Source of the DNA: Falsiroseomonas tokyonensis
GTDB taxonomy: Bacteria > Pseudomonadota > Alphaproteobacteria > Acetobacterales > Acetobacteraceae
Assembly (NCBI RefSeq): GCF_019024325.1
Contig: NZ_JAFNJS010000005.1
Span: forward strand, 62,001-126,000
Length of the DNA stretch: 64,000 nucleotides
Reading direction: 5' to 3'
The notes beneath the pieces were generated by a model that did not search any database, was not told the DNA's origin, and saw nothing but the letters and a program-made list of their open reading frames with translations. The position numbers and the translations under genes were made by a program. This document shows, piece by piece, positions 39,583-59,923 of the stretch; position 1 is the stretch's first letter; the number at the start of each line of letters is the position of its first letter.

Positions 39583-40101
39583 TCAGTAATTCGCCTTCTT
39601 CTCCACGTCGAAGCCGCGCTTGGCGATCAGCATGGTGCGGTCGAATTCGCAGACCAGCTTGCCATCCTGGTTGAAGCCGCGGGTGCGGACATTGACGATG
39701 CCGGCATTCGGGCGGGATTTCGATTCGCGCTTGTCCAGCACCTCGCTCTCACCCGAGAGGGTGTCGCCGGCAAACAGCGGGAAGGTCAGCTTGATCTCCT
39801 TCCAGCCGAGATTGGCGATCGCCTTCTGGGAGACATCGCTGACGCTCATCCCCACCAGCAGCGCGACGGTGAAGGGGGAGCAGATGATGCAGCGGCCGAA
39901 TTCGGAATGCTTGGCGTATTCCGCGTCAAAATGCATCGGGTGCTGGTTCATCGTCAGCAGCGTGAACCAGGTGTTCTCGGTTTCGGTGATCGTGCGGTTC
40001 GGCCGGTGCTCATAGATGTGGCCGGGCGCGAAATCCTCGAAATAGCGGCCGAAGCTCTCGCGGAAGCGGTTCGGCGCCACTTCGGCATGCGTCTGCACCA
40101 T
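39583..40101 (-). CDS. MaoC-family acyl-CoA hydratase
   Basis: 172 residues with a single hot-dog fold of the MaoC type: GRYFEDFAPGHIYEHRPNRTITETENTWFTLLTMNQHPMHFD with the catalytic Asp/His pair, then SPFTVALLVGMSVSDVSQKAIANLGW. Such proteins hydrate enoyl-CoA thioesters; mesaconyl-CoA and related branched substrates are typical for this subgroup. ATG 40101 has a GGGAGAA site and lies 16 bp downstream of a GntR-type palindrome. Its stop is at the edge of the MITE-like element. Confidence 0.88.
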   Translation of the reverse strand: MVQTHAEVAPNRFRESFGRYFEDFAPGHIYEHRPNRTITETENTWFTLLTMNQHPMHFDAEYAKHSEFGRCIICSPFTVALLVGMSVSDVSQKAIANLGWKEIKLTFPLFAGDTLSGESEVLDKRESKSRPNAGIVNVRTRGFNQDGKLVCEFDRTMLIAKRGFDVEKKANY

Positions 40102-40114
40102 GCTGCGTTCTCCC

Positions 40115-40132
40115 AATTTGTCCGGACAAATT
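40115..40132. promoter_or_regulatory. GntR-type operator 1 (maoC)
   Basis: An 18 bp perfect palindrome AATTTGTCCGGACAAATT, core TTGTCCGGACAA at 40118-40129, sits between the end of the symporter gene and the maoC start. It is the strongest of six similar sites in this island. Confidence 0.7.
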
Positions 40133-40133
40133 T

Positions 40134-41075
40134 CTAGCGCATCGCGCGATGGCGCGCGAGGGCCCGATAGGCCGGTGCGACCAGCATCGGCATGATGAAG
40201 AGCGTGAGTTGCGCCGCGGCCACGATCAGGCCGAGGTCGCTGTCCCCCGGCGCGCCGAGTGCGGCCAGCAGCAGCACCATGTTGCGCGATCCGCTGACCA
40301 GGGCTGCGGACAAAGCTCCCGCTACCGGCGCCGGCCGAAAGACCAGGTAGCCCAGCGCCTGCAGCAGCAGGTTCAGCCCCAGCGCGAAGCCGATCATGCC
40401 GAGGAACTGCAGCGGCCTTGCGGACAGCGCCTCTCCCACCCCGGCCATGCAGGGCAGGGCGGACAGCGTGACCAGGACGACGAGCCAGGCATCGATGGTC
40501 GGCGCCGCCTGGCGCAGCCGGGGCCTGCCGAGCGTCCAGACCACCACGGCCGCGCCCGCAAAACTGCTGCCCACCATCACGGCCAGGCGGATCGCCATGT
40601 CGAGCGGATCGACCTGCGCGCCCACACCCATCAGCCCCGCGACCAGCGGCAGCCAGAGCGGCGCCAGCGCATTGGAGGGAATCGCCACCACCGTCAGCAG
40701 CGCGGCATCGGCGCCGAGTAGCAGGGCGAAGGCGGCGGCCGACATGATGGAGGGCGTGGCCGACATCAGCACCGCCGCGGCGAGGAAGGTCGACCCCGCA
40801 GGCAGGATCGCGCCGAGCACCAGCCAGACCAGCAGCGGCACGCCGAGCGTGACCCAGAGCAGGATCAGCAGCGCCAGGCCTGGCCGCCGCAGCACCTGGC
40901 CGAAGGCGGCGGGCTCGATCCGCAGCAGGCCGAACAGCATGACGACGATGGAGATGGCCACGAGCCCTGGCCGCGTCGCCTCCGCCAGCCCTGGCAGGGC
41001 GATGCCGGCCAGGGCACCCGCCGCGATCAGCGGCAGGCCGTTGCGGCGGATCAGCCCGCCCAGGCCCCCGCTCAT
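40134..41075 (-). CDS. Bile acid:sodium symporter-like permease
   Basis: 313 residues with about nine or ten hydrophobic helices (NGLPLIAAGALAGIALPGLAEA, LMSATPSIMSAAAFALLLGADA, ALVSGSRNMVLLLAALGAP). The SGSRNM segment recalls the cross-over helix of the BASS fold. It may import or export an organic acid. The start overlaps the dctM stop (ATGA), so it is the third gene of a TRAP operon, an unusual partner. Confidence 0.7.
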   Translation of the reverse strand: MSGGLGGLIRRNGLPLIAAGALAGIALPGLAEATRPGLVAISIVVMLFGLLRIEPAAFGQVLRRPGLALLILLWVTLGVPLLVWLVLGAILPAGSTFLAAAVLMSATPSIMSAAAFALLLGADAALLTVVAIPSNALAPLWLPLVAGLMGVGAQVDPLDMAIRLAVMVGSSFAGAAVVVWTLGRPRLRQAAPTIDAWLVVLVTLSALPCMAGVGEALSARPLQFLGMIGFALGLNLLLQALGYLVFRPAPVAGALSAALVSGSRNMVLLLAALGAPGDSDLGLIVAAAQLTLFIMPMLVAPAYRALARHRAMR

Positions 41076-42367
41076 CCGCGCAGCGAGGTCGGCAGCGCCG
41101 TGACGATCTGCGGGAACAGGGTGATCAGAGCGGTGAAGACCATCATGATGACGCAGAAGGGCCAAGCATAGCCGGCGATGCGGAAGATGTTCTCCCTGGT
41201 CAGCCCCTGGATGACGAAGAGGTTGAAGCCGACCGGCGGGGTGATCTGCGCCATCTCGATGGTGATGATCAGGAAGACGCCGAACCAGATCGGATCGAAG
41301 CCCGCCGCCACGGCCAGCGGCAGCGTCACCGGCAGGGTCATGACGATGGCCGAGAGGCCATCCAGGATGCAGCCCAGCGCGAGGTAGAACAGCAGCAGCA
41401 CGAAGATCAGCATGTAGGGGTGCAGGCCCCAGCCCTGGATGGCATTCGCCACATCCGCCGGCAGGCCCAGCCGCGCCATGGCCTTGGACAGGAACAGCGC
41501 GCCGACGATGATCAGCCCGATCATCGAGCAGGTCTTCACCGTGCCGAGCAGCGCGCCCCACATCCCGCGCAGCGTCAGCGTGCGCTGAGCCACGGCCACC
41601 AGCAGCGCGCCCAGCACGCCGATGGCCGCGGCCTCCGTGATGCTGGCGAAGCCAAAATACAGGCTGCCCATGATGAAGAGGATCAGGAAGGCGATGGGCA
41701 CCAGCTGCAGCAGCGCGCGCAGCGCCTCCGCCAGCGGGATCGCCGGCTCCTTCGGTGGCACCAGCGTCGGGTCCATCCAGGCGCGGAAGGCGATGTAGCC
41801 CATGAACATCAGCGCCAGGCCCAGCCCCGGCACCAGGCCCGCCATGAACAGTTCGAGGATCGAGGCATCAGCGACGACGCCATAGACGATCATCGGGATG
41901 GAGGGCGGGATCAGGAAGCCCAGCGTGCCCGCACCGGCGAGAGAACCCACGGCAAGCCGGCGGTCATAGCCGCGGCCCAGCAACTCCTGCAGCGTGATCC
42001 GCCCGACCGTCGCCGTGGTGGCCGCGCTGCTGCCCGAGACCGCGGCGAACAGCGTGCAGCCCAGCACGTTCACATGCACCAGGCGCCCCGGCAGCCAGCG
42101 TGTCCAGGGCGAAAGGCCCTTGAACAGATTCTCCGACAGCCGCGTGTGGAACAGGATCTCGCCCATCAGGATGAACAGCGGCAGGGTCACCAGCTCCACC
42201 GCCGTGGCGCTGGACCAGATATCGCCGGCCAGGAAGCGGTCCACCCGCATGTCGCGGAAGGCCTCCAGCGCGACGATGCCGATCGACATCAGCGCGACGC
42301 CGACCCAGACGCCGCCCGCCAGCGTCACCACCAGCATGCCGAGGACGAGCAGGAGGGGGGCGGTCAT
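41072..42367 (-). CDS. TRAP transporter large permease (DctM), system 1
   Basis: 431 residues, about 12 helices. VTLPLFILMGEILFHTRLSENLF, AAVSGSSAATTATVGRITL, GSLAGAGTLGFLIPPSIPMIVYG and ITPPVGFNLFVIQGL are the standard DctM motifs. It imports a carboxylate using the sodium gradient with DctQ (overlapping upstream gene) and the DctP-type binding protein encoded at 43337-44338. Confidence 0.93.
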   Translation of the reverse strand: MTAPLLLVLGMLVVTLAGGVWVGVALMSIGIVALEAFRDMRVDRFLAGDIWSSATAVELVTLPLFILMGEILFHTRLSENLFKGLSPWTRWLPGRLVHVNVLGCTLFAAVSGSSAATTATVGRITLQELLGRGYDRRLAVGSLAGAGTLGFLIPPSIPMIVYGVVADASILELFMAGLVPGLGLALMFMGYIAFRAWMDPTLVPPKEPAIPLAEALRALLQLVPIAFLILFIMGSLYFGFASITEAAAIGVLGALLVAVAQRTLTLRGMWGALLGTVKTCSMIGLIIVGALFLSKAMARLGLPADVANAIQGWGLHPYMLIFVLLLFYLALGCILDGLSAIVMTLPVTLPLAVAAGFDPIWFGVFLIITIEMAQITPPVGFNLFVIQGLTRENIFRIAGYAWPFCVIMMVFTALITLFPQIVTALPTSLRG

Positions 42368-42888
42368 TCCACGCCTCCGCTTGCCATTCCGTCGCCGAGG
42401 TCCGGCACCTCCCGCCGCAGCAGCCGGAGCAGCCGCGCGACGAAGCCGAGCAGCAGCAGCGTGACGCCCAGCGTCAGCAGCAACTGCGGGATCCAGGTGG
42501 GCGTGGCCATGGGATAGTAGGAGGTGCTGGCGAAATCGAAGCTGCGCAGCGTCTGCTGCCACAGCGTCGTGGTGGCGAAGCCGATGACGCCGATGGCGAA
42601 GACGCAGCCGGCCATGTCCAGCAGCCGCGCCGCCGCCGGCGGCAGGGCCTGCAGCAGCACCGCGACGCGAATATGCCCGCCCTGCCGCAGCGCCCAGCCG
42701 GCGCCGCAGAACAGCACAAAGCACTGCAGGTAGATGGCGTATTCCACCGCCCAGGGCTGCGACCAGTTGAAAAAGCTGGTGGCCAGCACTTCGACGATCA
42801 GGATCAGCGCGAGCAGCGCGGCGGAGACGGCGGCGACCCAGGCGCCGAGGGTGCAGAGCGCATCGACGCCACGAAGCAGCGCGGTCAT
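42364..42888 (-). CDS. TRAP transporter small permease (DctQ), system 1
   Basis: 174 residues with four membrane helices; NWSQPWAVEYAIYLQCFVLFCGAGWALRQGGHIRVAVLL is typical of DctQ. The stop overlaps the dctM start. An ATG at 42912 would add eight residues. Confidence 0.88.
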   Translation of the reverse strand: MTALLRGVDALCTLGAWVAAVSAALLALILIVEVLATSFFNWSQPWAVEYAIYLQCFVLFCGAGWALRQGGHIRVAVLLQALPPAAARLLDMAGCVFAIGVIGFATTTLWQQTLRSFDFASTSYYPMATPTWIPQLLLTLGVTLLLLGFVARLLRLLRREVPDLGDGMASGGVE

Positions 42889-42959
42889 CGCGGCTGCCCT
42901 CGCATCCCGCATCGGCGTCGCGTTACGCTGGGTGGCAGAGGCATTGGAAGGATCCCGTC

Positions 42960-43331
42960 ATGGCCGACAAGGCCGAACATTTCGAAGCGACGCTGGGCGC
43001 CGTGCCCGAGAGCGTCGCGCTGCTGCGCCGCCATGCGCCGGAGGCCTTCGCCGCCTATGTCATGGCGCGCGAGGCCGCCTACCGCCTGCCGCCCGAGGGC
43101 CATCTGCCGCTGGCGAGCAAGGAACTGGTCTTCATCGTGCTGGACGTCGCGGCCGGCCATGTGGAGGGCGCCGTCGCGCATGCCGAGGCCGGGCTGCGCG
43201 CCGGCCTGACGCCCGGCCAGATCATGGAGGCGCTGGGCATCGCCATCCTGATTCATGGCCATCAATGCTGGGCCAGGGCCGGGGCCGCGGTGATGCGCCG
43301 TGTGGAGACGCTGGCCGCGAGCCCCGGCTGA
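42960..43331 (+). CDS. Carboxymuconolactone decarboxylase-like protein
   Basis: 123 residues, all-helical AhpD/CMD fold: PLASKELVFIVLDVAAGHVEGAVAHAEAGLRAGLTPGQIMEALGIAILIHG. The redox CxxC seen in AhpD is absent (VAAGHVEG), while the helix His (AHAEAG) is kept, so a peroxidase-type activity is unlikely. It is encoded on the opposite strand between the binding-protein and permease genes of TRAP system 1. Confidence 0.85.
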   Translation: MADKAEHFEATLGAVPESVALLRRHAPEAFAAYVMAREAAYRLPPEGHLPLASKELVFIVLDVAAGHVEGAVAHAEAGLRAGLTPGQIMEALGIAILIHGHQCWARAGAAVMRRVETLAASPG

Positions 43332-43336
43332 AGGCC

Positions 43337-44338
43337 TCACGCCCGCCCGACGCGCCGGCGGAATTCCTGGATGATCGGACCCGCCGCCGGATTGGCGCGG
43401 GCGAAGTCATCCGCCATGGTCGCGGTCGCCGCGCGCATCGCCTGCACCAGCGCCGGAGCCGGTTCCTCCACCGTCATGCCATTGCGCTGCAGCTCCGCCA
43501 TGCGCGTCGCATGCTCGGCCTTGGAGACGTTCCAGAACTCCGGCTCCATCCGCTTCGCCACCTCCTGGATGGTGGTGCGGGTGGCGGCCGGCAGGCGGCG
43601 CCAGCTTTCCAGGTTCACCAGCATCAGGTTGGTGGCCCAGAGGTGGTTGGTCGTATAAGCGTGCTTGAGGAATTCCCAGTAGCGCTGCGCGACCGCCGTG
43701 GTGCCGGAGGTCATCACCGCATCGACGCGGCCGGAGGCGAGCGCCGGGACCACATCCGGATTGTTCAGCTGCTGCGGCACCATGCCGAGCCGCGTGCACA
43801 TCTCCGCCGTCACCCGGTCATAGGTGCGCATGCGCACGCCGCGCAGGTCGGCAGCGGTGACGATGGGCTTCTTGAAATAGAAGTTCTGCGTCGGCCAGGG
43901 CACCATATAGACCAGCGCCACGCCGCGCCGCTCCAGCTCCCGCTCCCAGGTCGCGCGGACCAGGCTGTGCATCACCTGCAGCTCGTCGTAATTGGCGATG
44001 AGGAAGGGCAGGCTCTCGATGCCCAGCAGCGGCAGGTCGCCGACATTCTGGAAGCCGGCCGATTCCGCCATCGGCACCACGCCATCGCCGACCGAGCGCA
44101 CCGTCTCATTCGCGCGCACGCCGAGCGCACCGCCCGGATGCACCGTCATCTGCACGGCGTCGTTGGTGGCCTTCTTCACCTCGGCGGCGAAGTTTTGGGC
44201 ATTGATCGTATGGAATTCCGTCGGGCCCCAGGGCAGCGAGATGTCCCAGCGCACCGGCGCCTGTGCGCTGGCACCGCGCGCCATCGCGCCAGCCAACACG
44301 GCACCCCCTGCCACCCGCATCACATCGCGTCGCTGCAT
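43337..44338 (-). CDS. TRAP transporter substrate-binding protein (DctP type), system 1
   Basis: 333 residues with an arginine-containing signal peptide (MQRRDVMRVAGGAVLAGAMARGASAQ). The mature part has WGPTEFHTINAQNFAAEVKKATN, VRMRTYDRVTAEMCTRLGMVPQQL, ASGRVDAVMTSGTTAV and the final helices of DctP proteins. The Arg in RMRTYDR is expected to bind the substrate carboxylate. Its permeases are downstream on the same strand but separated by an opposite-strand gene. A GntR-type palindrome lies 70 bp upstream. Confidence 0.92.
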   Translation of the reverse strand: MQRRDVMRVAGGAVLAGAMARGASAQAPVRWDISLPWGPTEFHTINAQNFAAEVKKATNDAVQMTVHPGGALGVRANETVRSVGDGVVPMAESAGFQNVGDLPLLGIESLPFLIANYDELQVMHSLVRATWERELERRGVALVYMVPWPTQNFYFKKPIVTAADLRGVRMRTYDRVTAEMCTRLGMVPQQLNNPDVVPALASGRVDAVMTSGTTAVAQRYWEFLKHAYTTNHLWATNLMLVNLESWRRLPAATRTTIQEVAKRMEPEFWNVSKAEHATRMAELQRNGMTVEEPAPALVQAMRAATATMADDFARANPAAGPIIQEFRRRVGRA

Positions 44339-44407
44339 GGTCCCACTCCTCGTCCCGATGGCCCCTTGCCCGAAGCCAAGCATGGGGCGTGCCGTTCGAC
44401 AAGGAAT

Positions 44408-44419
44408 TTGTACGGACAA
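44408..44419. promoter_or_regulatory. GntR-type operator 2 (dctP / crotonase)
   Basis: TTGTACGGACAA, one mismatch to the consensus TTGTCCGGACAA, in the divergent region between the binding protein (start 44338) and the crotonase gene (start 44448). It could control both. Confidence 0.6.
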
Positions 44420-44447
44420 CTCGCCCGGCCCGGGTTAGGCTCTCGCC

Positions 44448-45221
44448 ATGACCCTGCACCTGTTGCGCCACGGCGCCGTGGCGACCCTGCTGATCGACAA
44501 TCCCGCGCGCCGCAATGCCATGGGACGCGCCATGTGGGCCGCCCTGCCGGGCCTTGTGGCGCAGGCGGTGGCAGATCCCGACATCGCGGTGATCGCGCTG
44601 ACGGGGCAGGGTGCCCATTTCTGCGGCGGTGCCGATATCGCGGAGTTCGAGGAGAGCTACGCGACGGCGGAGGCCGCGAGCGCCAGCAATACCCTGATCC
44701 ATGAGGCCGTGCAGGCCTTGGCCGATTGCCCAAAGCCTGTGCTGGCCTGCATCCGCGGTGCCTGCGTCGGCGGCGGCGTCGCCATGGCGCTGGCCTGCGA
44801 CCTGCGGCTGGCGGCGGAGGATGCGCGTTTCGCCGTCACGCCCGTGCGACTCGGCCTGATCTACAGCCAGGCCGATACGCAGCGGCTGATGCGCGCCGTG
44901 GGTGCGGGGCGCGCGAAGGAGATGCTCTTCGCCGCCCGCATGGTGGAGGCCGCGGAAGCCGCGCGCATCGGCCTGGTGGAGCGGCTTTTCCCCGTCGAGG
45001 ATTTCGCCGCCGCGAGCGAGGCCTACTTGGCCAGTCTTGCCGCCTCCTCCCGCCCCGCGCTGCGCGCCGTGAAGCGGATGGTGGCGGCGATCGAGGCGGG
45101 GGCGCCGCCGGCGGCGTCCGAGCTGCACGCGCTGTTCGAGGCGCAGTTCCACGGCGCGGATTTCGCGGAAGGCACCGCCGCCTTCCTCGCCAAGCGTCCG
45201 GCGCGCTTCACGGCGCGATGA
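44448..45221 (+). CDS. Crotonase-fold protein lacking hydratase glutamates
   Basis: 257 residues of the enoyl-CoA hydratase/isomerase superfamily: NPARRNAMGRAMW, oxyanion-hole segments AHFCGGADIAEF and RGACVGGGVAMALACD, then RFAVTPVRLGLIYSQADTQRLMRAVG. In standard hydratases the two catalytic Glu lie in GGGCELAM and QPEILLG; here the aligned positions are Ala (GGGVAMA) and Pro (VTPVRLG). It therefore binds CoA thioesters but is probably a thioesterase, decarboxylase, isomerase or C-C hydrolase instead. Its 3' end overlaps the convergent amidase gene by 14 bp. Confidence 0.85.
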   Translation: MTLHLLRHGAVATLLIDNPARRNAMGRAMWAALPGLVAQAVADPDIAVIALTGQGAHFCGGADIAEFEESYATAEAASASNTLIHEAVQALADCPKPVLACIRGACVGGGVAMALACDLRLAAEDARFAVTPVRLGLIYSQADTQRLMRAVGAGRAKEMLFAARMVEAAEAARIGLVERLFPVEDFAAASEAYLASLAASSRPALRAVKRMVAAIEAGAPPAASELHALFEAQFHGADFAEGTAAFLAKRPARFTAR

Positions 45222-46470
45222 GCAGCTCCGCCATGCCGAGGATCAGCGCCTCGGCATAGGGGCGGCCGACCAGCTGCACGGAGGCCGGCAGGCCGCCATC
45301 CTGCGCCGGCCAGGGCAGGGCGATGGCAGGCAGGCCGGCGAAATTGGCCAGCGCCGTGAAATCCGCCTGATCCACCGGCGCCGGCGTGCCATGGGCGAAG
45401 GCGCGTTGCGGCGCGGTGGGCATCAGCAGCGCGTCGCAGGACTGCAGCGCCCGCAGCGCGGCGGCTTTCACCTCTTCCAGCCGATGCAGCGCGCGCACCA
45501 GTCGCACCGTGCCGGCATCGCGGCCATAGGCCAGGGCGGCCCGGAAGCCGGGCGAGGCGGCCTGAGGGTCATCGACCAGCTCGGCATGCAGGGCGGCCGC
45601 CTCGGCTTCCACCAGCAGCAGGCCGGCGCGTCGTGCGACGGAGGGATTCCAGGCGGGCATCGGCACCGGCTCCACCACCGCGCCGGCCTCCCGCAGCCGG
45701 ACGGCGGCAGCCGCCCAGGCGGCGCGCAGTTCGGGCTCCATGGTCGCGGCCAGCACCGGTTCCGGCAGGCCGATGCGCAAGCCGTCCAGGCGCGGCGGGG
45801 CCTCCGCCACGGCGCGCCACCCGGTGGGCGTGGGGCGCCAGCCGGGATCCTCCGGATCGTCGCACAGCATCGCCTCCAGCCCCAGCGCCGCCAGGCGCGG
45901 CGTGCGCGTCAGCATGCCGACCGTGTCGAGCGCCGGGGAGAGCGGCACGACGCCGCTGCGCCCGATCAGCCCCTGCGTCGGCTTCAGCCCCACCACGCCG
46001 CAATAGGCGGCCGGAATGCGGACGGACCCCATCGTGTCGCTGCCCACCGCCAGCGGCACGAAGCCCGCCGCCACCGCGGCGCCGGACCCGCCGGAGGAGC
46101 CGCCGGGGGTGAAGCCCTCGCGCAGCGGGTTGATGCAGCGGCCGAAGCCGGGAGTATCCGTCGTCGCGCCCAGCGCTCCCTCATGCATCGCCAGCTTGCC
46201 GAGGATCACCAGCCCGGCCGCGCGCAGCCCGCGCACGCAGGGCGCATCCGTCGTGGCAACGCGATTGCGGAAGGCGGCGATGCCGGCGGTGGTGCGCAGC
46301 CCCGCAACATCGACATTGTCCTTGATGCCGATCGCAACCCCATCGAGTTCGCCGTCGCCGCGCCGCGGTGTGGCCAGCGCGCCCGGCGCATCCACCTGCC
46401 AGAAGGCGCCGATCGCTGGATCTTCCCGCGCGATGCGATCGAGCAGGGCGGGGATGTCGCTGCCGCTCAT
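45208..46470 (-). CDS. Amidase signature family hydrolase
   Basis: 420 residues. The Ser-cisSer-Lys triad is clear: Lys in VAIGIKDNVDVAG, Ser in TPGGSSGGSGAAVAAG and the nucleophile in GSDTMGSVRIPAAYCG. It hydrolyses an amide, possibly a half-amide formed by ring opening of an imide. Neighbouring PaaK-type ligase overlaps by 4 bp (ATGA), so product and CoA activation may be sequential. GatA function is unlikely, since no gatB or gatC is nearby and the protein is short. Confidence 0.9.
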   Translation of the reverse strand: MSGSDIPALLDRIAREDPAIGAFWQVDAPGALATPRRGDGELDGVAIGIKDNVDVAGLRTTAGIAAFRNRVATTDAPCVRGLRAAGLVILGKLAMHEGALGATTDTPGFGRCINPLREGFTPGGSSGGSGAAVAAGFVPLAVGSDTMGSVRIPAAYCGVVGLKPTQGLIGRSGVVPLSPALDTVGMLTRTPRLAALGLEAMLCDDPEDPGWRPTPTGWRAVAEAPPRLDGLRIGLPEPVLAATMEPELRAAWAAAAVRLREAGAVVEPVPMPAWNPSVARRAGLLLVEAEAAALHAELVDDPQAASPGFRAALAYGRDAGTVRLVRALHRLEEVKAAALRALQSCDALLMPTAPQRAFAHGTPAPVDQADFTALANFAGLPAIALPWPAQDGGLPASVQLVGRPYAEALILGMAELLIAP

Positions 46471-47858
46471 TGGCGGTCGTCGACCAGGCGGATCGGTTTC
46501 TGGCGGCTTTCCACCTGGGTCAGCGCGGCGAGCGAACCCGGCGCGCAGAGCGCCACGCCGATCTCGACGCCGAGGCGCATGCGCAGCATGGCCTCCAGCT
46601 TTTCCTGCATCGCGGGCTCCGCCGCGCCACGGATTTCCAGATGCGCGGTCATCGTATCGCGCCCATCCGCACGGCTGACACGGCAGATGAATTCACCTGT
46701 CGCACCTTCCGCCTGCTCCACCAGCAGCGCGCCGATGCCGGTGGGGAACAGGTTGATGCCGCGCAGCTTCACCATGTTGTCGCTGCGCCCCAGAAATCCC
46801 TTCATGCGGCGGAAGGGAATGCCGAGCGGATTCGGCCCCAGCACTTCCTCCGTCACGTCATGCGTGTTGAAGCGGATGATCGGGAAGATATCGTCCTTGA
46901 ACAGACAGGTGCAGATCATGTCGCCGAGCGTTCCTTCCGGCACCGGCAGGCCGGTATCGGGATCGGCGATCTCCAGCACATGAGCATCCTCCTGGATGTG
47001 CATGCCGCTGCGGTCCGGCCCCTCGCCGGCGATGATCCCGGTATCGCCCACGCCGTACCAGTCAAAGACCGCGGCACCGCCCCAGGCGGCGGAAAGGCTC
47101 GCCTGGGTCTCGCTGCCGAGATGCGCGCAGATCAGGCGGATGGGGATGTCGAGGCCGGGCTCAAACCCTTCCTCCCGCGCCACATCGGACAGGCGCTTGA
47201 TGTAGTCGGCGAAGCCGACGATCGCGGTGGCGCCAAACTGCTTCATGATGAAGATCTGCTGCGCGGAGCGTGTCTCCACGCCCGTGCCGGCGGAGAGGAA
47301 CCGCGCGCCGACCCAGTGGTGCACGGCCTCGCGGATATAGTGGCCACCATTGATCATGCCGTGGCCATAGACCGAATGCACCACATCGTCCCGCGTCATG
47401 CCGGCCATCAGGTACATGCGCGCCAGCAGGCGGTTCTGAACCTCGCGCGACTTGGCGCCGAAGAGCAGCGGCTGCGGCGTGCCGGTGGTGCCGCTGGTGG
47501 TGTGGAAGATGATCTGGGGCCGGCGCTCCGGCGGATGCGCATCCTGGCCGTGGAAATCGCCGAGCGGCGGATAGGCAGCGACCGAGGCCATCAGGTCCGA
47601 CTTGTCATAGGCGGGCAGCTTCGGCAGATCGTCCAGGCCCTTGATATCGCCCGGCTCGATGCCCTTGGCGCCCCAGAGCCGCTGGTAGAAGGGCACCTTC
47701 CAGCCAAAGGCCATGATCTTCGCGAAATCGGCTTCCTGCCGCGCCCGCAGCGCATCGCGCGAAACGCCCTGCAGCGCCTGGGGAAAATCCGGGCCGATCG
47801 GGTAGTCGCGCAGCAGCGCCGGATGGTCCATGGCCGTGACATAGTCGAAGACCGGCAT
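46467..47858 (-). CDS. Phenylacetate-CoA ligase-like AMP-forming ligase
   Basis: 463 residues of the PaaK branch of adenylate-forming enzymes: P-loop HTTSGTTGTPQPLLFG, YGVGDTGIIAGEGPDRSG, IRFNTHDVTEE and FLGRSDNMVKLRGINLFP. It activates a carboxylic acid as acyl-AMP and transfers it to CoA. The acid is not necessarily phenylacetate; the context suggests an aliphatic or amide-derived acid. It lies between an MmgE/PrpD gene (20 bp upstream) and the amidase. Confidence 0.88.
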   Translation of the reverse strand: MPVFDYVTAMDHPALLRDYPIGPDFPQALQGVSRDALRARQEADFAKIMAFGWKVPFYQRLWGAKGIEPGDIKGLDDLPKLPAYDKSDLMASVAAYPPLGDFHGQDAHPPERRPQIIFHTTSGTTGTPQPLLFGAKSREVQNRLLARMYLMAGMTRDDVVHSVYGHGMINGGHYIREAVHHWVGARFLSAGTGVETRSAQQIFIMKQFGATAIVGFADYIKRLSDVAREEGFEPGLDIPIRLICAHLGSETQASLSAAWGGAAVFDWYGVGDTGIIAGEGPDRSGMHIQEDAHVLEIADPDTGLPVPEGTLGDMICTCLFKDDIFPIIRFNTHDVTEEVLGPNPLGIPFRRMKGFLGRSDNMVKLRGINLFPTGIGALLVEQAEGATGEFICRVSRADGRDTMTAHLEIRGAAEPAMQEKLEAMLRMRLGVEIGVALCAPGSLAALTQVESRQKPIRLVDDRQ

Positions 47859-47878
47859 GCCGGGCGGTTCCTTTGCGG

Positions 47879-49207: not shown

Positions 49208-49232
49208 GGTACGATCCCGTTGGACAGAAAAC

Positions 49233-49244
49233 TTGTCCGGACAT
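49233..49244. promoter_or_regulatory. GntR-type operator 3 (mmgE unit / CoA-transferase)
   Basis: TTGTCCGGACAT, one mismatch to the consensus, in the 49 bp between two divergent starts (49207 leftward, 49257 rightward). Confidence 0.65.
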
Positions 49245-49256
49245 ATCAACGGAAGC

Positions 49257-50486: not shown

Positions 50487-50488
50487 CG

Positions 50489-51616
50489 CTATTGCGAAAG
50501 GCGCCGCCGCGCCTCAGCCACCACCTCGGCCGTGTGTTCCCCGAGCGCGGGCAGGCGGGGGTTCAGCTGGCCGGGCTCGTCGCGGAACTTGATGGGCAGG
50601 CCGATATGAAGGTTGCCCTCCTCATCCCGCACCAGCATTTGCCGCGCCGCGACTTGCGGGCCCGCGAAGGCTTCCTTCAGGTCCAGCACCGGCGCGAAGC
50701 ACACGTCGCGGCCGGCGAACCAGGCCTCCCATTCATCGCGCGTGCGCGTGCCAAAAATCTCGCGCAGGAAGGTTTGAGCAGGTTCGTGGCCGGGGCCGGG
50801 TGGGCCGGAGGCGCCGGGGATCAGGTCGGGGCGGTCCAGGGCGTGCAGCAGCGTCTCGACGAACTTGTGCTCGCTGCCGCCGAGCACCACCCATTTGCCG
50901 TCGCGCGTCGGATAGATGCCGTAGAAGGCGCCGCCGCCCCATTGGCGCTCGTGCTTGACCACGGGCGCGCGGTCCTCGCCGAAGACCGCGCCGGTGGCGT
51001 TGGGCAGCCAGGACAGGGTGGCGTCGAACATCGCCATGTCGATCACGTCGCCACGGCCCGTTGTCTCGCGCCGCAGCAGCGCCATCAGGATGCCCGATAG
51101 CGCGAGGAGGGAGGCGGTGACATCCGCCACGGGAATACCGGGATTGGTCGGCTTGCCATCCTGGCCCAAATTGACGGAGAGCGTGCCGGCCAGCGCCTCC
51201 ACCGCCAGGTCATGCGCCGGGCGGCGGCTTTCGGGCCCGTCCTGGCCGAAGGCGGAGATGGAGCAATAGACCAGCCGCGGGTTCAGCGCCGTCATCGCGG
51301 TGGCCCCGATGCCGAGGCGATCCGCGACGCCGGGCCGGAAGGCCTCCACCATCACGTCGCAGGTCCGCGCGATATCGCGGAAGGCGGCCAGCTCCTCGGG
51401 CTTCTTCAGGTCCAGCACGATGGATTTCTTGCCGCGACCGATGTTGCGGAACCACACGCTGTGCCCGCCGGCGCGCTGGCCGATGCTGCGCACGGGCTCG
51501 CCGCTCGGCGGTTCCAGCTTGATCACCTCCGCGCCGTGATCCGCCAGCACCGTGGTGAGATACGGCCCCGGCAGGAACAGCGACAGGTCCAGCACGCGGA
51601 TGCCCTGCACCTTCAT
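50489..51616 (-). CDS. CaiB/BaiF class III CoA-transferase 2
   Basis: 375 residues starting MKVQGIRVLDLSLFLPGPYLTTVLADHGAEVIKLEPP. The catalytic Asp is in RRPAHDLAVEALAGT; ADVTASLLALSGILMALLRRE and the C-terminal FAPVLDLKEAFAGPQVAARQM are typical. Class III enzymes transfer CoA between dicarboxylates or carnitine/bile acid-type acids. It follows another family member after 2 bp; a pair may form a heteromer or act on different acids. Confidence 0.9.
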   Translation of the reverse strand: MKVQGIRVLDLSLFLPGPYLTTVLADHGAEVIKLEPPSGEPVRSIGQRAGGHSVWFRNIGRGKKSIVLDLKKPEELAAFRDIARTCDVMVEAFRPGVADRLGIGATAMTALNPRLVYCSISAFGQDGPESRRPAHDLAVEALAGTLSVNLGQDGKPTNPGIPVADVTASLLALSGILMALLRRETTGRGDVIDMAMFDATLSWLPNATGAVFGEDRAPVVKHERQWGGGAFYGIYPTRDGKWVVLGGSEHKFVETLLHALDRPDLIPGASGPPGPGHEPAQTFLREIFGTRTRDEWEAWFAGRDVCFAPVLDLKEAFAGPQVAARQMLVRDEEGNLHIGLPIKFRDEPGQLNPRLPALGEHTAEVVAEARRRLSQ

Positions 51617-51618
51617 GG

Positions 51619-52881
51619 TCAGACCGCCCCCAGCGCCCGCAACTGGGCGATTTCCGTTTCCGTGTAGCCGGCCTCCGCCAGCACCGCCGCGCTATCCGCG
51701 CCATGGGCGGGGGCGGCGCAGCCGGGCAGGCGCTGCCCGTCCAGCTTGATGGCGCTGGCCACCACCTTGAGGTCCCCGCGTGCCGGATGCGGCAGCTCCA
51801 GCACGCCGCCCTGGCTGCGGAAATAGGGGTTGTCCAGCGCCTCGGCCAGGCTGAGCACGGGCGCCACCGGCACCTTGCCCGCCAGCGCCTCCACCCATTG
51901 CGCGGAGTTGCGCGCGCGCATCACCGGATCGAGTGCGCGCATGAGATCCTCGCGATTCGCCAGCCGATCGTCGAAGCCCTTGAAGCGCGGGTCGGCGACG
52001 AGCTCCGGCACGCCGGCAATTTCGCAAAAGCTGCGCCAGAAGCCGGGCTTGATGCACATGACGAAGACATGGCCATCGGCTGTCGGGAACATCTCGCAGG
52101 GCACGACGGAGGGATGCCCCCCGCGCGGCCGCCGCGGCACCACGGTGCTGTCGTTCAGGTACCAGGTGGCGACATAGGTCAGGTTCTGCATCGCCACGTC
52201 ATAGAGCGACACATCCATGTCGCAGCCGCGCCCGCTGGCGCGCGCGCCCATCACGCCGGCGAGCAGCGCGGTGGCTGCGGTGAGGCCGGAGAGGAAATCG
52301 ACCAGCGACAGGCCGGCGCGCGCCGGCAGCGCATCCGGCTCGCCGGTCATGGCGCAGAAGCCGGCCTCGGCCTGGGCCAGATAGTCATAGGCCGGCCAGG
52401 CGGCGCGCGGGCCGGTGCGGCCATAGCCGGAGAGATGCACGCAGACGATGCCGGGCTTCACCTGCCCCAGCGCGGCATAGTCCAGGCCGAGCTTCGCCGG
52501 CAGGTCGCCGCGCAGATTGTTCAGCACCGCATCCGCATCCCGCACCAGGCGGTGCAGCGCATCCCGCGCGCCGGGCTTGCGCAGGTCGAGCGTCAGGCTG
52601 CGCTTGTTGCGGTTGAAGGTCTGGAAGTACTGGCTGTCATTCTCGCCGAGCGGATGCCCGCCGGTGTGGCGCGCGATGTCGCCCGGCAACTCGCCCTCGG
52701 CCGCCGGCTGTTCCACCTTCACCACCTCGGCGCCGAGATCGGCGAGGTTCATGGTGGCGAAGGGGCCGGCGCCGAATTGTTCGAAGCTGATGATCCGGAG
52801 GCCGGCCAACGGAAGCTTTGGTTGGCGGGGCCGATTCAGACCTTCGCGGCCTTCGCCGCTGCGGTCATCGGACCCGCTCAC
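51619..52881 (-). CDS. CaiB/BaiF class III CoA-transferase 1
   Basis: 420 residues. LAGLRIISFEQFGAGPFATMNLADLGAEVVKVEQP, NRNKRSLTLDLRKPGARDAL and the catalytic Asp in WPAYDYLAQAEAGF identify the family. The GTG at 52881 overlaps the acyl-CoA dehydrogenase stop (GTGA) and adds a roughly 25-residue leader before the conserved core. Together with that gene it suggests a dicarboxylate is activated and then dehydrogenated, as in methylsuccinate/itaconate-type routes. Confidence 0.9.
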   Translation of the reverse strand: MSGSDDRSGEGREGLNRPRQPKLPLAGLRIISFEQFGAGPFATMNLADLGAEVVKVEQPAAEGELPGDIARHTGGHPLGENDSQYFQTFNRNKRSLTLDLRKPGARDALHRLVRDADAVLNNLRGDLPAKLGLDYAALGQVKPGIVCVHLSGYGRTGPRAAWPAYDYLAQAEAGFCAMTGEPDALPARAGLSLVDFLSGLTAATALLAGVMGARASGRGCDMDVSLYDVAMQNLTYVATWYLNDSTVVPRRPRGGHPSVVPCEMFPTADGHVFVMCIKPGFWRSFCEIAGVPELVADPRFKGFDDRLANREDLMRALDPVMRARNSAQWVEALAGKVPVAPVLSLAEALDNPYFRSQGGVLELPHPARGDLKVVASAIKLDGQRLPGCAAPAHGADSAAVLAEAGYTETEIAQLRALGAV

Positions 52882-54047
52882 GCCGGAAACCGCTCGACCA
52901 GCTGTTTGGCGATAATGATGCGCTGGATCTCGTTCGTGCCCTCGCCGATGCACATCAGGGGTGCGTCGCGATAGTAGCGCTCCACATGGTATTCCTTGGA
53001 ATAGCCGTAGCCGCCGTGGATGCGCAGCGCCTCCAGGCTGTTCTCCACCGCAGCCTCGCTGGCGAAGTATTTCGCCATGCCGGCCTCCATGTCGCAGCGC
53101 AGGCCGGCATCGTAGATGCGCGCCGCGTCATAGGTCAGCAGCCGCGCCGCCTGCACCCGCGTGGCCATCTCGCCGAGCTTGAGCTGGATCGCCTGGTGCT
53201 CGCAGATCGGCTTGCCCATGGTCTTCCGAATCTGGCTGTAGCGGACGGAATCCATCAGGGCGGCGGAGGCGAGGCCGCAGCCGCGGGCCGCCACGTTGAT
53301 TCGGCCCAGCTCCAGACCGCCCAGCGCGGTCTGCAGTCCCTGGCCCTCGATCCCGCCGATGAGATTGGCGGCCGGCACGCGGTAGTCGTCGAAGACAAGC
53401 TCGGCGCTGTCGATGCCCTTGTAGCCCAGCTTCTCCAGCTTCTTCGAAACCGAGAAGCCGGGGCCCTTCGGCGCCAGCAGCATGGACATGCCCTTGTGGC
53501 GCGGCTTCGCCTCGCTGTCCGTCTTCACAAGCAGCGCGAAGCAGGAGCCGTGGATGCCGTTGCTGATCCAGGTCTTGGTGCCGTTGACGATGTAGTGGTC
53601 GCCATCCCGCACCGCGCGGGTGCGGATCGCCTGCAGGTCCGTGCCGCAATCCGGCTCGGTCAGCGCCAGCCCGCCGCGGATCTCGCCGCTGGCGAATTTC
53701 GGCAGCCATTCCGCCTTCTGTGCATCGGTGCCGAGGCGGGAGACGCAGGCGGCCATGATCAGGTGGCTGTTGAAGATGCCGGAGAGCGACATCCACACTT
53801 CCGCGATCTTCTCGACGATCTTCGCATAGACCGTGGCCGAGAGGCCGAGCCCGCCATACTCCACCGGGATGGTGGCGCCGAACAGACCGAGTTCCTTCAT
53901 CTGCTCGACCATCTCGGCCGGCCATTCATCCGCATGTTCCAGCCGCAGCACATGCGGGCGCACGTCGCGGTCCAGCCACTTGGCGATGGTGTCGAGGAGG
54001 GCGGCCTCCTCCTCGGCTTCGGCCGAGCGGGCGACATGCGTGTCCAT
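52878..54047 (-). CDS. Acyl-CoA dehydrogenase
   Basis: 389-residue FAD enzyme introducing an alpha,beta double bond into an acyl-CoA. Signatures are LALTEPDCGTDLQAIRTRA, NGTKTWISNG, LELGRINVAARGCGLA and the C-terminal RIHGGYGYSKEYHVERYYRDAPLMCIGEGTNEIQ, with the catalytic Glu in GEGTNEIQ. Electrons would go to ETF (not in the window). First gene of the acad-caiB-caiB unit, 21 bp from a GntR-type palindrome. Confidence 0.95.
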   Translation of the reverse strand: MDTHVARSAEAEEEAALLDTIAKWLDRDVRPHVLRLEHADEWPAEMVEQMKELGLFGATIPVEYGGLGLSATVYAKIVEKIAEVWMSLSGIFNSHLIMAACVSRLGTDAQKAEWLPKFASGEIRGGLALTEPDCGTDLQAIRTRAVRDGDHYIVNGTKTWISNGIHGSCFALLVKTDSEAKPRHKGMSMLLAPKGPGFSVSKKLEKLGYKGIDSAELVFDDYRVPAANLIGGIEGQGLQTALGGLELGRINVAARGCGLASAALMDSVRYSQIRKTMGKPICEHQAIQLKLGEMATRVQAARLLTYDAARIYDAGLRCDMEAGMAKYFASEAAVENSLEALRIHGGYGYSKEYHVERYYRDAPLMCIGEGTNEIQRIIIAKQLVERFPA

Positions 54048-54068
54048 GGCGGCGATCCCCGTTGAAAC

Positions 54069-54080
54069 TTGTCCGGACAA
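54069..54080. promoter_or_regulatory. GntR-type operator 4 (acyl-CoA dehydrogenase unit)
   Basis: Perfect TTGTCCGGACAA between the PrpD gene end (54104) and the acyl-CoA dehydrogenase start (54047). Confidence 0.7.
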
Positions 54081-54103
54081 ATATCGGCCGGAACCGCTCC
54101 GCG

Positions 54104-55486
54104 TCAAGCTTTCCCGGCGACCGCCGCAACCAGATCGGCGACATTTCCCAGCTGCTCGATCCCCGTAACCAGGTCGCGCAGCACCACGGCGCGGGCCTCC
54201 GGAACCGGCGGCACGGCGTGGCGGCAGCAGCGGAAGAATTTTTCCTCGTTGTCCGCGGCGGAAAGCGGCACGGCGGGGTGGCCGTAGATGCGCGGCAGGG
54301 TGATGGACAGCGTCTGGCCAGAGGTGAGACGCACCTCCACCACCTGCGGGTCCAGTGTGTTCTCGTCCGTATTGCCATCGGGCTCCAGCCGCACCAGGGC
54401 GGCGTAGCGATGCACCTCCGGGTCGCGCAGCGCCTCGCCCCGAAAGTCCGGCACGTCGCAGCGCCCCTTGGCGAGGAAGACGGCGGCGACGAAGGGCAGG
54501 CAGAGCTTGGCATAGTTCGAGGCAGGGTCTGGCACGTTCGGCCGCCCGACCAGGCGCAGCACCAGCGGAGGCGCCCGGCACACCACCTCCGCCACCTGAT
54601 CCGCCGCAAAGCCGTGCTGCATCATCAGGTCGCGCAACCCATGCACCACGCCATGCGTCAGCCGGCCGGAGGGGAAGGGCTTGTGGGACAGCTTTTCGAT
54701 CTGCCATTCCCGCCCGAGCACCGACGTGACCCGTTCGGGATGCACGTCCTGTTCTATGAGGGAAAAATAGCCGTAGCGGCCGGTGAAGACGTCGAGGGGC
54801 CCCTGCATGCCGGCGGCCGCAAGATCCGTCGCCGCGATGGCGCCCCGCGCATTGAAGCCGATCTGCAGGCCCAGCAGCGGCGAGCCCTCGAGATGCGCCT
54901 GCAGATTGCCGCTGGTCTGGCCATACATATGGCCGAAGGCGCTGCGCGTGGTTGCGATGTCGAAGCCGGCAAGATTGGCGATCGCCGCCGTGGCGCCGAA
55001 GCCGCCCGCCGTCGCCGGGCGGAAGAAGCGCAGCGCGGAATCGGTGGCGACGCCGAGCAGCCCGGCCGTATCCACCCCCACCGCCATGGCGGCCAGGAAG
55101 CGGTCGCCGGAGACAGGCCGGCCGCGCGCCGCCTCCCGTTCGCACCAGGCGAAAAGCGCGGAGAGCAGCGTCGCCATCGGGTGGACCACCGCGCGCTCAT
55201 GCACGCAGTCGAATTCCAGGCAGTGGATCAGATAGGCGTTGACGATGGCCGCCGAGCCCGCGGACATGCGCCGTCCGCCGAGCCAGGCCGTCGCCTCCTC
55301 CCCCGGTCCCCATTGCGCGGCGAGGTCCAGCACCGTCTGCACATTGGCGCCGCTGCTGCCGGCAATCGCCACGCCCAGCGTATCCAGCAGGAAGGTCTTT
55401 GCCGCAGCGATCGCCGCGGGCGGCAAGTCCGCGCGGCGCGTGCTGACGGCGTGGCGGGCGAAGGCTTCGGCCAGGTCCTGGGTCAT
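54104..55486 (-). CDS. MmgE/PrpD family protein 2
   Basis: 460 residues. LLDTLGVAIAGSSGANVQTVLDLAAQWG, NAYLIHCLEFDCVHERAVVHPMATLLSAL, GATAAIANLAGFD and YGQTSGNLQAHLEG are conserved MmgE/PrpD blocks; SHKPFPSGRLTHGVVHGL is the later active-site region. It differs clearly from family member 1 in the same island, so the two probably handle different steps or substrates. Its start overlaps the deacetylase stop (ATGA). Confidence 0.9.
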   Translation of the reverse strand: MTQDLAEAFARHAVSTRRADLPPAAIAAAKTFLLDTLGVAIAGSSGANVQTVLDLAAQWGPGEEATAWLGGRRMSAGSAAIVNAYLIHCLEFDCVHERAVVHPMATLLSALFAWCEREAARGRPVSGDRFLAAMAVGVDTAGLLGVATDSALRFFRPATAGGFGATAAIANLAGFDIATTRSAFGHMYGQTSGNLQAHLEGSPLLGLQIGFNARGAIAATDLAAAGMQGPLDVFTGRYGYFSLIEQDVHPERVTSVLGREWQIEKLSHKPFPSGRLTHGVVHGLRDLMMQHGFAADQVAEVVCRAPPLVLRLVGRPNVPDPASNYAKLCLPFVAAVFLAKGRCDVPDFRGEALRDPEVHRYAALVRLEPDGNTDENTLDPQVVEVRLTSGQTLSITLPRIYGHPAVPLSAADNEEKFFRCCRHAVPPVPEARAVVLRDLVTGIEQLGNVADLVAAVAGKA

Positions 55487-56367
55487 CGCGCTGCGGGCTC
55501 CGCCGGGGCTGGGGTGTGTGCGGCAAAGGCACGGGCGATCTCGGCGCGCGTCGCGAACCAGACGCCCGGCTTGCTGCGGGCATGCTGCAGGAAGCGGCCA
55601 AAAGCGCCGATGCGGCCGGGCCGGCCGATGATGCGCAAATGCACGCCGAGCGACATCATGCGCGGCGCGCTCGCGCCTTCCTCCAGCAGCACCTCGAAAG
55701 TCTCGATGGCGTAGTCCAGCCATTGCTGCGGCGTATAGCCGGGCGCCAGCCAGAACTTCATGTCGTTGCTGTCCAGCGCATACGGGACGATGACGATGGC
55801 GCGCGGCCCATCCTGCGTCTCCACCACATCCCAGCGCGGCACATCGTCGGAGAAGTCGTCCATGTGATAGAGGAAGCCTTCCTCCGCCAGCGTCGTGCGC
55901 AGCCGCGGCGAATGCAGATACCGGGAAAGCCATCCGAGCGGCCGATGTCCCGCGGTCTGGCGGATGCTCTCCACCGCCTTGCGCACGAAATCGCGTTCCC
56001 GCGCCTCGTCAAAGGAGAACTGGTGCACCCAGCGCCAGCCATGGCTGCAGGCCTCGTGCCCGCCGGCGGCGATCGCCTGGCCGATCTCCGGCGCGCGTTC
56101 CAGCGCCTGCGCCGCCGCGGTGAAGGTGGCCTTCACCTCATGCTTGGCGAGCTGCGCCGCCACCCGCGGCCAGCCTGCCCGGATGCCGTAGAGGTAGTTG
56201 GATTCATTGGCATAGTTGCGGATGGGGATCTTCAGCGCGACGCCGAGCTCATCCACCGGCTCCGGCCCCTTGTCGCCGTCCCGCACCGACATCTCGGCGC
56301 CTTCCTCGACATTGACGACGACGGACAGAGCGAGGCGGGCATCCTGGGGCCAGAGGGCTTGCGGCAT
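55483..56367 (-). CDS. Polysaccharide deacetylase-fold hydrolase (cyclic imide hydrolase/PuuE-like)
   Basis: 294 residues with a NodB-type barrel: SVVVNVEEGAEMS, IRNYANESNYLYGIRAGWPRV, VKATFTAAAQALERAPE, and HEACSHGWRWVHQ. That last motif and the lack of a classical FDDG box place it with PuuE allantoinase and cyclic-imide hydrolases and not with chitin or peptidoglycan deacetylases; there is no signal peptide, so it is cytoplasmic. Likely reaction: hydrolytic opening of a cyclic amide, imide or ureide. It heads a two-gene unit with PrpD 2 and has an operator 14 bp upstream. Confidence 0.82.
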   Translation of the reverse strand: MPQALWPQDARLALSVVVNVEEGAEMSVRDGDKGPEPVDELGVALKIPIRNYANESNYLYGIRAGWPRVAAQLAKHEVKATFTAAAQALERAPEIGQAIAAGGHEACSHGWRWVHQFSFDEARERDFVRKAVESIRQTAGHRPLGWLSRYLHSPRLRTTLAEEGFLYHMDDFSDDVPRWDVVETQDGPRAIVIVPYALDSNDMKFWLAPGYTPQQWLDYAIETFEVLLEEGASAPRMMSLGVHLRIIGRPGRIGAFGRFLQHARSKPGVWFATRAEIARAFAAHTPAPAEPAAR

Positions 56368-56381
56368 GGGGCTACCTGATG

Positions 56382-56393
56382 TTGTCCGGACAA
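56382..56393. promoter_or_regulatory. GntR-type operator 5 (deacetylase unit)
   Basis: Perfect TTGTCCGGACAA between gntR (stop 56428) and the deacetylase start (56367). Confidence 0.7.
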
Positions 56394-56427
56394 ATCCTAC
56401 CGAAGCCGCGCCGCGCGTAAAGGGTGC

Positions 56428-57210
56428 TCAGCCCTCGCCACGCCGCAGGCGCATCGCATAGGTGAAGCGTTCCGCCGGATGCCAGCTGCGGGACAGCAGC
56501 AGGGTCGCGCCATCCGTGCCCAGGTAGCGGCGCACGAAGCGCATGCCGACCTCGCGCCGCTTGCGGCCCAGCGCCTCCGCCACGCGGGCGGGCAGGGCGG
56601 CGGCGGTGATCTCCTGCACCACCTCCGCCACCTCCACCCCGAAGCGGCTTTCGATCAGCGCATAGATCGCGCCACGCTCCGACAGGGCACTGCTGATGGA
56701 GGCGAAGCGCGGATGGATCAGGATCTCGGCGGTCGCGATCGGGTTGCCATCCTGGCCGATCCGCAGGCCTTCCAGCTGCAGCCAGGTTTCGCCCGGCTGC
56801 GCGGGGATGGCGGCCGCATCCTCCGAGGTCAGCGGCGCCATGCGGCGGTCGCGGATCTCCAGCCGCGTATCGGCGGCGTATTGGAACAGGGATTCGATGC
56901 TGCGCAGCGACTGCACCGTGCCGCTCGGCGCCTCCCGCGCCACCACCATGGTGCCGGCGCCTTGCCGCCGCTCGACCAGCCCGGCCTCGACCAGCCGGCG
57001 CAGCGCCTCCCGGATCGTGTGGCGGGAGACCTGCAGGCTTTCGCAGAGCTCGGCCTCCGTCGGCAGCAGCGTGCCGATGGCGTAGCGGCCTTCCGCGATC
57101 GCCTCCCGCAGCTGGCCCTCGATTTGGGCATAAAGGGGCGGCCGCGGCGTATCCGGCCGGGATGCGGCGCGGGTCAGTGCCACGGCCTCCGTGCTGATTG
57201 CATGGTCCAT
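56428..57210 (-). CDS. GntR-family transcriptional regulator, HutC subfamily
   Basis: 260 residues. A winged-helix DNA-binding domain near residues 25-95 (PLYAQIEGQLREAIAEG, GTLLPTEAELCESLQVSRHTIREALRRLVEAGLVERRQGAGTMVV) is joined to a UTRA ligand-binding domain (GETWLQLEGLRIGQDGNPIATAEILIHPRF, GAIYALIESRFGVEV). HutC-type repressors bind palindromes and release them on binding a pathway acid. ATG 57210 has GGAGGGG just upstream; longer frames start only at a TTG inside the operator. It is the obvious reader of the six TTGTCCGGACAA sites, including one 36 bp upstream of itself. Confidence 0.92.
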   Translation of the reverse strand: MDHAISTEAVALTRAASRPDTPRPPLYAQIEGQLREAIAEGRYAIGTLLPTEAELCESLQVSRHTIREALRRLVEAGLVERRQGAGTMVVAREAPSGTVQSLRSIESLFQYAADTRLEIRDRRMAPLTSEDAAAIPAQPGETWLQLEGLRIGQDGNPIATAEILIHPRFASISSALSERGAIYALIESRFGVEVAEVVQEITAAALPARVAEALGRKRREVGMRFVRRYLGTDGATLLLSRSWHPAERFTYAMRLRRGEG

Positions 57211-57246
57211 CCCCTCCGTCCTTGGGGGAAGGCTAGCCGCTTGGCC

Positions 57247-57258
57247 TTGTCCGGACAA
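57247..57258. promoter_or_regulatory. GntR-type operator 6 (gntR autoregulation)
   Basis: Perfect TTGTCCGGACAA between the DUF2848 gene end (57271) and the gntR start (57210). Confidence 0.7.
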
Positions 57259-59920: not shown

Positions 59921-59923
59921 GGC

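Follow-up and report, generated by a model that had tools for sequence, protein, structure and literature searches.

A 64,000-base stretch of the Falsiroseomonas tokyonensis genome (positions 62,001 to 126,000 of contig NZ_JAFNJS010000005.1; hereafter the window, whose own numbering is used) carries a cluster of putative acid-degradation genes, in which copies of a short palindrome precede several operons and one gene encodes a GntR-type regulator. The regulator gene (gntR, 56428..57210, minus strand) specifies 260 residues with an N-terminal GntR winged helix (PF00392, 81.7 bits against a cut-off of 27), a helix-turn-helix (HTH) domain, together with a UTRA domain (PF07702, 54.3 bits against 23.8), and by this GntR plus UTRA architecture the protein is a regulator of the HutC type. 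The genome that contains the window (G000; 6.16 Mb in 59 contigs) has 27 matches to the GntR HTH, 25 of them above the cut-off, and six to UTRA. Its closest other protein is 28% identical to the window regulator, and relatives of 81-86% identity occur in Falsiroseomonas and Roseomonas.

Six palindromic sites in the window

The palindrome TTGTCCGGACAA occurs exactly at 40118, 54069, 56382 and 57247 and with one mismatch at 44408 and 49233, as a preliminary description of this DNA had it, and no seventh match at up to two mismatches is found anywhere in the 64-kb window. All six sites are intergenic and lie 12-69 bp from eight start codons, in agreement with the placement near gene starts described earlier. 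Long forms of dctP, acct and mmgE were used although our own gene caller chose starts further inside, because the orthologues align from the first residues. The putative operator TTGTCCGGACAA at 40118..40129 stands 16 bp 5′ of maoC and is exact in 11 of the 11 clusters mapped in the genus, i.e., that of the window and those of ten relatives (in G004 it is on a separate contig, L187). In the gap between the divergent dctP and ech genes, 69 and 28 bp from their starts, the putative operator TTGTACGGACAA (44408..44419) has a one-mismatch form in all 11 clusters, and the candidate TTGTCCGGACAT (49233..49244), between the divergent mmgE and acct genes (31 and 12 bp), is identical in all seven clusters that possess this gap. 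The remaining three candidate operators are again TTGTCCGGACAA: that at 54069..54080 lies 21 bp 5′ of the acad-caiB-caiB operon, adjoins a -10-like element and is exact in 11/11 clusters; that at 56382..56393 lies 14 bp before the operon of a PuuE-like hydrolase gene (deac) and prpD and recurs in 10 of 11 clusters, nine times exactly; and that at 57247..57258, 36 bp before gntR, has a counterpart before the gntR operon in all 11, of which 10 are exact.

Chance or base composition as the origin of the six sites is ruled out by shuffled sequences, by the expectation from composition and by reversed controls. Six matches at up to two mismatches compare with a mean of 0.90 and a maximum of 4 in 100 dinucleotide shuffles of the window, and from base composition one would expect 0.0014 exact sites in 64 kb and 0.13 in a genome. 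With a 16-position matrix made from 60 orthologous sites, the six window sites among them, these six score 18.9-33.0 and the next best position in the window scores 4.0.

Conservation of the sites and their occurrence with gntR

Fifteen genomes of the genus, G000 included, and 131 further genomes outside it were compared, the reversed pattern serving as control. A gntR orthologue of 64-100% identity is present in 11 of the 15, and none was found in G002, G009, G010 and G014, where the best match (in G014) reaches 38%. Each of the 11 gntR-bearing genomes has 3-9 exact sites and each of the four others has none, while the reversed pattern gives no exact match in any of the 15. At up to one mismatch there are 10-23 sites per genome with gntR vs 0, 2, 2 and 5 without it; summed, 179 sites in 64.4 Mb with gntR compare with 9 in 22.5 Mb without it, for which the reversed control yields 24 and 16. 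The one-sided Fisher value for this co-occurrence is 7e-4, which ignores kinship and is a guide only.

A scan of relatives, suggested as a check in the preliminary description, finds the sites conserved at the same gaps in the 11 genus clusters. In an alignment of 60 sites, which omits that of maoC in G004, mean pairwise identity is 98.8% in the core and 57.6% in the 24 flanking bases. The imperfect sites are kept as imperfect, the dctP gap holding TTGTACGGACAA in seven clusters and TTGTTCGGACAA in four, which suggests a graded strength of the putative operators. The sites also follow the heads of operons when these change. The clusters of G004, G006, G008 and G011 yielded no acct gene, and in them mmgE lies directly behind caiB1 without a site (4/4); in G004 the deacetylase gene lies about 20 bp behind gntR and has no site of its own; and in G004, G008 and G011 an Amdase/maleate-isomerase-like gene precedes gntR, the site having moved 5′ of that gene. 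An isochorismatase, considered for this additional gene, gave no match. In G004, G006 and G008, cmd replaces ech as the divergent neighbour of dctP. A copy with two mismatches lies within caiB2 of G012.

Outside the genus, exact sites are present in 10 of the 131 genomes, mostly one each, with four in G020 and two in G120. Relatives of gntR with adjoining sites are 35-46% identical and belong to Rhodobacterales and Burkholderiales with differing gene orders; in Acetobacteraceae and Rhodobacterales gntR remains in the cluster despite such differences. In the Rhodobacterales loci L050, L051 and L053 (gntR 44-46%) the genes are grouped into fewer operons, and sites occupy the mmgE/acct gap and the region 5′ of a long operon; in the burkholderial loci L055-L057 (gntR 35-38%) gntR is flanked by TTGTCCGCACAA, TTGTCCGTACAA or TTGTCCGGACAT sites. 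Exact sites before the long operon come in pairs 100-123 bp apart (L050 19280/19403, L051 12807/12907, L053 19059/19159), and L062 has a pair separated by 477 bp (12182 and 12659); these could reflect paired binding.

The form of the palindrome fits the regulator. Most sites of the HutC subfamily have the form GT-N4-AC, with a published consensus GTMTAKAC centred on TA (PMC4494728), and TTGTCCGGACAA has GT and AC four bases apart; all 60 aligned sites are centred on CG and not on the TA of GTMTAKAC, which is a consensus and no strict criterion. As in the HutC, NagR and DasR systems described in that paper, a GntR HTH and a UTRA domain go together with a GT-N4-AC palindrome, several operons, a site 5′ of the regulator's own gene and single sites in divergent gaps (PMC4494728). 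The window system is unlike them in the CG centre (GTCCGGAC), where the published consensus has TA (PMC4494728), and in that its pathway is not linked to a GntR in the papers compared. In G000, TTGTCTAGACAA lies about 100 bp 5′ of a HutC-like GntR gene (G000:C12:820385; L029 4006) and joins the half-sites of TTGTCCGGACAA to a TA centre; the two putative operators of this genome, TTGTCCGGACAA and TTGTCTAGACAA, accordingly differ solely in the two central bases. Position 39 of the HTH is His in the window regulator, by alignment to what we take to be the numbering of E. coli FadR. This position has been tied to the central operator bases (PMC4494728). As a residue code for the CG centre, His39 was rejected: it cannot explain CG vs TA because the HutC-like paralogue C12:820578, beside TTGTCTAGACAA, shares it. 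Exact TTGTCCGGACAA copies also adjoin distantly related GntR genes (about 27% identical, with Phe at position 39) in two further genera of the family (L174 4051 and L176 4035).

Predicted regulon, proposed mechanism and competing explanations

On these grounds, the palindrome is very probably the operator of the window GntR, a repressor that would govern the acid-degradation cluster and some distant genes, a reading supported by the co-occurrence with gntR, the conservation of the sites and their tracking of operon heads across relatives. The earlier proposal of one HutC-type GntR protein as the likely owner of the sites is thereby strengthened, the domains and the footprint pointing the same way, and autoregulation, which it also proposed, is probable given the site before the gntR operon in 11/11 genus clusters. 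A predicted multi-operon regulon of a HutC-type GntR, in itself an ordinary kind of control circuit of which this would be a new example, is thus well supported.

Two promoters hint at how the control would be exerted. The acad site has a TTGAC element 26-28 nt on its 5′ side in 11/11 genomes and adjoins -10-like bases; at gntR, a TTGTCC half-site, possibly the -35, lies 17 nt before TA(G/C)C(C/T)T in 11/11, a pair that was read by eye and from which the script's top-scoring pair differs in 4/11. This geometry favours repression by polymerase blocking. In the mechanism that we propose, TTGTCCGGACAA (extended, ATTTGTCCGGACAAAT) would serve as operator for the gntR product (56428-57210), bound by a dimer with one winged helix per half-site. 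At its own promoter and at those in five neighbouring gaps, the dimer would cover or adjoin the -10/-35 elements and shut the promoters off, until a pathway metabolite in the UTRA domain caused its release and with it the joint induction of genes for transport, activation with coenzyme A (CoA) and oxidation. The same protein would also act at some distant promoters, namely those of flavin adenine dinucleotide (FAD) monooxygenases, a maleate-isomerase-like gene, a GAF protein and solute receptors. Effector-driven release is the norm for HutC regulators (PMC4333415, PMC4918961), and by analogy it may hold for the window GntR. Binding, repression rather than activation, an inducer and the pathway are what we infer.

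The regulon would not be confined to the cluster. The genome holds 8 exact and 10 one-mismatch copies, of which 4 and 2 are in the window; the earlier statement that no further full site was noticed in the 64 kb accordingly holds, and it does not extend to the genome, where there are 4 more exact and 8 more one-mismatch copies. Eleven of these 12 are intergenic (3/4 exact, 8/8 one-mismatch) and some recur in relatives, so the six-site regulon first described stands as a multi-operon regulon but is larger than six sites. Gene boundaries outside the window come from our own simple codon-usage caller and not from a standard annotator, and the intergenic counts depend on it; L047 and L055, with visibly poor gene calls, were left out of the counts. 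Neighbours of the off-window copies include FAD monooxygenases (L016, L027 and the second gene of the L023 operon), a maleate-isomerase/Amdase-like gene, a GAF protein, TctC and other solute receptors and an amidohydrolase. Across the genus there are 27 exact off-cluster sites (4 in G000 and 23 in eight relatives), several of which are mutually orthologous and not independent; 26 are intergenic, 20 of them at most 51 bp from a start, and the coding share of the loci concerned is 84%.

Several of these targets recur. The site at the L016 FAD monooxygenase is present with 0-1 mismatch in all seven gntR-bearing genomes with an orthologue of at least 83% identity; in G002, which is without gntR, a 93% identical monooxygenase has the site at three mismatches, and by this comparison the site is decayed there. 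G002, with its decayed, unlinked site, may be regarded as a small natural experiment. Orthologues of 74-75% in the gntR-bearing G004, G006, G008 and G011 have no site. The L149 amidohydrolase has the site in four genomes and lacks it at orthologues of 83-84% in G000, G001 and G007 (with gntR) and in G002 (without). The GAF gene is present in 11/11 gntR-bearing genomes of the genus and 0/4 others; its site lies directly 5′ in two genomes and about 1 kb upstream, before the preceding receptor gene of a tripartite ATP-independent periplasmic (TRAP) transporter, in five, and in four gntR-bearing genomes no site was found within the retrieved locus. In L050 and L053 a GAF homologue (48-49%) adjoins the amidase gene. 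In three genomes of the genus the gntR operon begins with the maleate-isomerase-like gene, and a 48% identical relative in G000 has a one-mismatch site 15 bp before the start. In Salinarimonas (L048), some 5 kb away from gntR, a one-mismatch site lies 52 bp 5′ of a FAD monooxygenase gene, behind which comes an Amdase-like gene.

A number of observations weigh against the proposed regulon. In G000 an exact copy (L018 8003; G000:C23:558322), the sole non-intergenic one, is inside a hydantoinase A/B gene; sites beside radical SAM/UDG (L017) and recombinase (L022) genes have no evident link, and neither has the exact site between LptC-related and exonuclease genes in L148. Off-cluster targets vary between species, and at up to two mismatches the G000 count does not exceed that of the reversed pattern (64 vs 83), so that the signal is restricted to near-perfect sites. 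The 11-vs-4 contrast is drawn among related genomes and hence represents few events; G043 and G060 each have one exact site despite no match to the GntR query, and since six of the 131 genomes outside the genus have 1-3 exact matches to the reversed pattern, single sites do arise by chance. Selection of the 60 aligned rows by the presence of a site inflates their core identity, and with flanks 88% alike the mmgE/acct gap tells little. Finally, no consistent pair of promoter elements was found in the gaps other than those of acad and gntR, and a general promoter scan gave two promoter-like sites in 18 kb (one at acad) vs 1.2 expected, about the chance rate.

The most serious rival is a motif common to two or more GntR paralogues, of which the window GntR would own the cluster sites and others part or all of those outside the window. 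In its favour, and a further point against a single owner, is a 37-38% identical paralogue that adjoins exact and one-mismatch sites in G003, G005, G012 and G013; distant GntR genes also adjoin exact sites in L174 and L176, and in G000 a HutC-like GntR adjoins TTGTCTAGACAA. We nevertheless regard it as unlikely, given that the next best G000 match to the window regulator is 28% identical, that no GntR gene other than that of L029 was found near the off-window sites of G000, that sites at up to one mismatch drop to 0-5 in genomes without gntR, and that the GAF gene tracks gntR in 15/15 genomes. Some regulators act both as activator and repressor, and the window GntR might activate from its sites instead of repressing. 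Nothing speaks directly for activation, and it is improbable with sites 12-36 bp from seven of the eight starts and, for acad and gntR, overlapping promoter-like elements, positions from which activation would not be expected. The palindrome might instead belong to another DNA-binding protein or to a property of the DNA such as methylation or a nucleoid signal, gntR being a bystander, and the site does contain CCGG. This is very improbable, as exact sites track gntR in 15/15 genus genomes, gntR is kept in the cluster across the gene orders of Acetobacteraceae and Rhodobacterales, and GT-N4-AC is the site form of the HutC subfamily (PMC4494728). Control by the window GntR as a repressor is the reading kept below.

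The 37-38% paralogue, which is absent from G000, lies in an operon with an isochorismatase-family gene, near TctC-receptor and CaiB genes (L147 in G012, L157 in G005, L164 in G013, L168 in G003), with one exact and one TTGTACGGACAA-type site nearby.

Among the papers listed by literature searches, which did not extend to subscription journals, preprints or RegPrecise, none dealt with this regulon; a text search with the 12-mer TTGTCCGGACAA gave a single match, a paper on Drosophila germline stem cells. What goes beyond the routine are the scattered off-cluster targets and the unnamed pathway. The analysis yields a predicted operator, regulator and gene list for an organic-acid pathway in Falsiroseomonas-type bacteria and their relatives; it would add a new repressor-operator pair and tie scattered monooxygenases, a maleate-isomerase-like enzyme, a GAF protein and solute receptors to that pathway.

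Cluster genes and the candidate pathway

From left to right, the window cluster contains maoC, for a MaoC hydratase (39583..40101, minus strand), whose nearest NCBIfam model, RipB/Ich, matches at 231 bits, under the cut-off of 340; dctQ, dctM and a gene for a 313-residue protein without Pfam match (40134..42888, minus), with no site at up to two mismatches before dctQ; cmd, of the carboxymuconolactone-decarboxylase family (42960..43331, plus), without its own site in the window; dctP, for a TRAP solute receptor (43337..44338, minus); and ech, of the enoyl-CoA hydratase family (44448..45221, plus). These are followed by mmgE with genes for a PaaK-like ligase and an amidase (45208..49201, minus); acct, of the acetyl-CoA hydrolase/transferase family (49257..50486, plus); acad, caiB2 and caiB1, for an acyl-CoA dehydrogenase and two family III CoA-transferases (50489..54047, minus); and deac, for the PuuE-like hydrolase of the polysaccharide deacetylase family, with prpD, of the MmgE/PrpD family (54104..56367, minus), both assigned at family level only.

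The preliminary description held the pathway to be defined by sequence alone, which goes too far: the families fit the catabolism of a branched dicarboxylate, and the specific cut-offs are missed. At family level, an acyl-CoA dehydrogenase, two MmgE/PrpD proteins and CoA-transferases come together in the cluster. The itaconate/methylsuccinate cluster (ich, mcd, mmgE, ict, ccl; PMC12290011, PMC9875883) is alike in its Ich-like MaoC, acyl-CoA dehydrogenase, MmgE/PrpD and CoA-transferase components, and the window pathway probably resembles this type. It differs in that the window cluster is without the lyase gene, misses the RipB/Ich cut-off and contains in addition an amidase, a PuuE-like hydrolase, a PaaK-like ligase and TRAP genes; neither paper mentions GntR in its main text (PMC12290011, PMC9875883). 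No gene for a citramalyl-CoA lyase (RipC/Ccl) is present in the window cluster. Related loci add a Ccl-like lyase, the L050 copy of which scores 209.9 bits, below the RipC/Ccl cut-off of 375. A G000 citramalyl-CoA lyase as hidden member of the regulon is not supported, the three distant homologues (33-38%) having no site at up to three mismatches in their loci of about 3.8 kb. In the Cupriavidus necator genome, compared for its itaconyl-CoA hydratase, the best maoC matches are only 35% identical. Taken together, we see the chances for branched-dicarboxylate catabolism as even, and those for any named substrate as lower.

Outside the window, the sequences nearest to the FAD monooxygenases in the PDB are PnpA and HspB, and another protein is nearest to maleate isomerases. 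This is a likeness, at family level only, to the maleamate/maleate branch of pyridine (nicotinate, nicotine) degradation, to which the off-window site genes may be linked. A wider proposal, possible but doubtful, is that a distinct HutC-type clade with a CG-centred operator controls, through its scattered regulon, an undescribed route: a FAD monooxygenase would act on a ring compound, the PuuE-like hydrolase and the amidase would open an amide or imide, and after a maleate-type isomerisation a branched dicarboxylate would be oxidised and cleaved in CoA-linked steps, as in itaconate/methylsuccinate degradation, with the GAF gene as an unrecognised part. Two TRAP gene sets without their own site at up to two mismatches, at 57271-61000 and 40134-42888, one of them with a DUF2848 gene, border the cluster.

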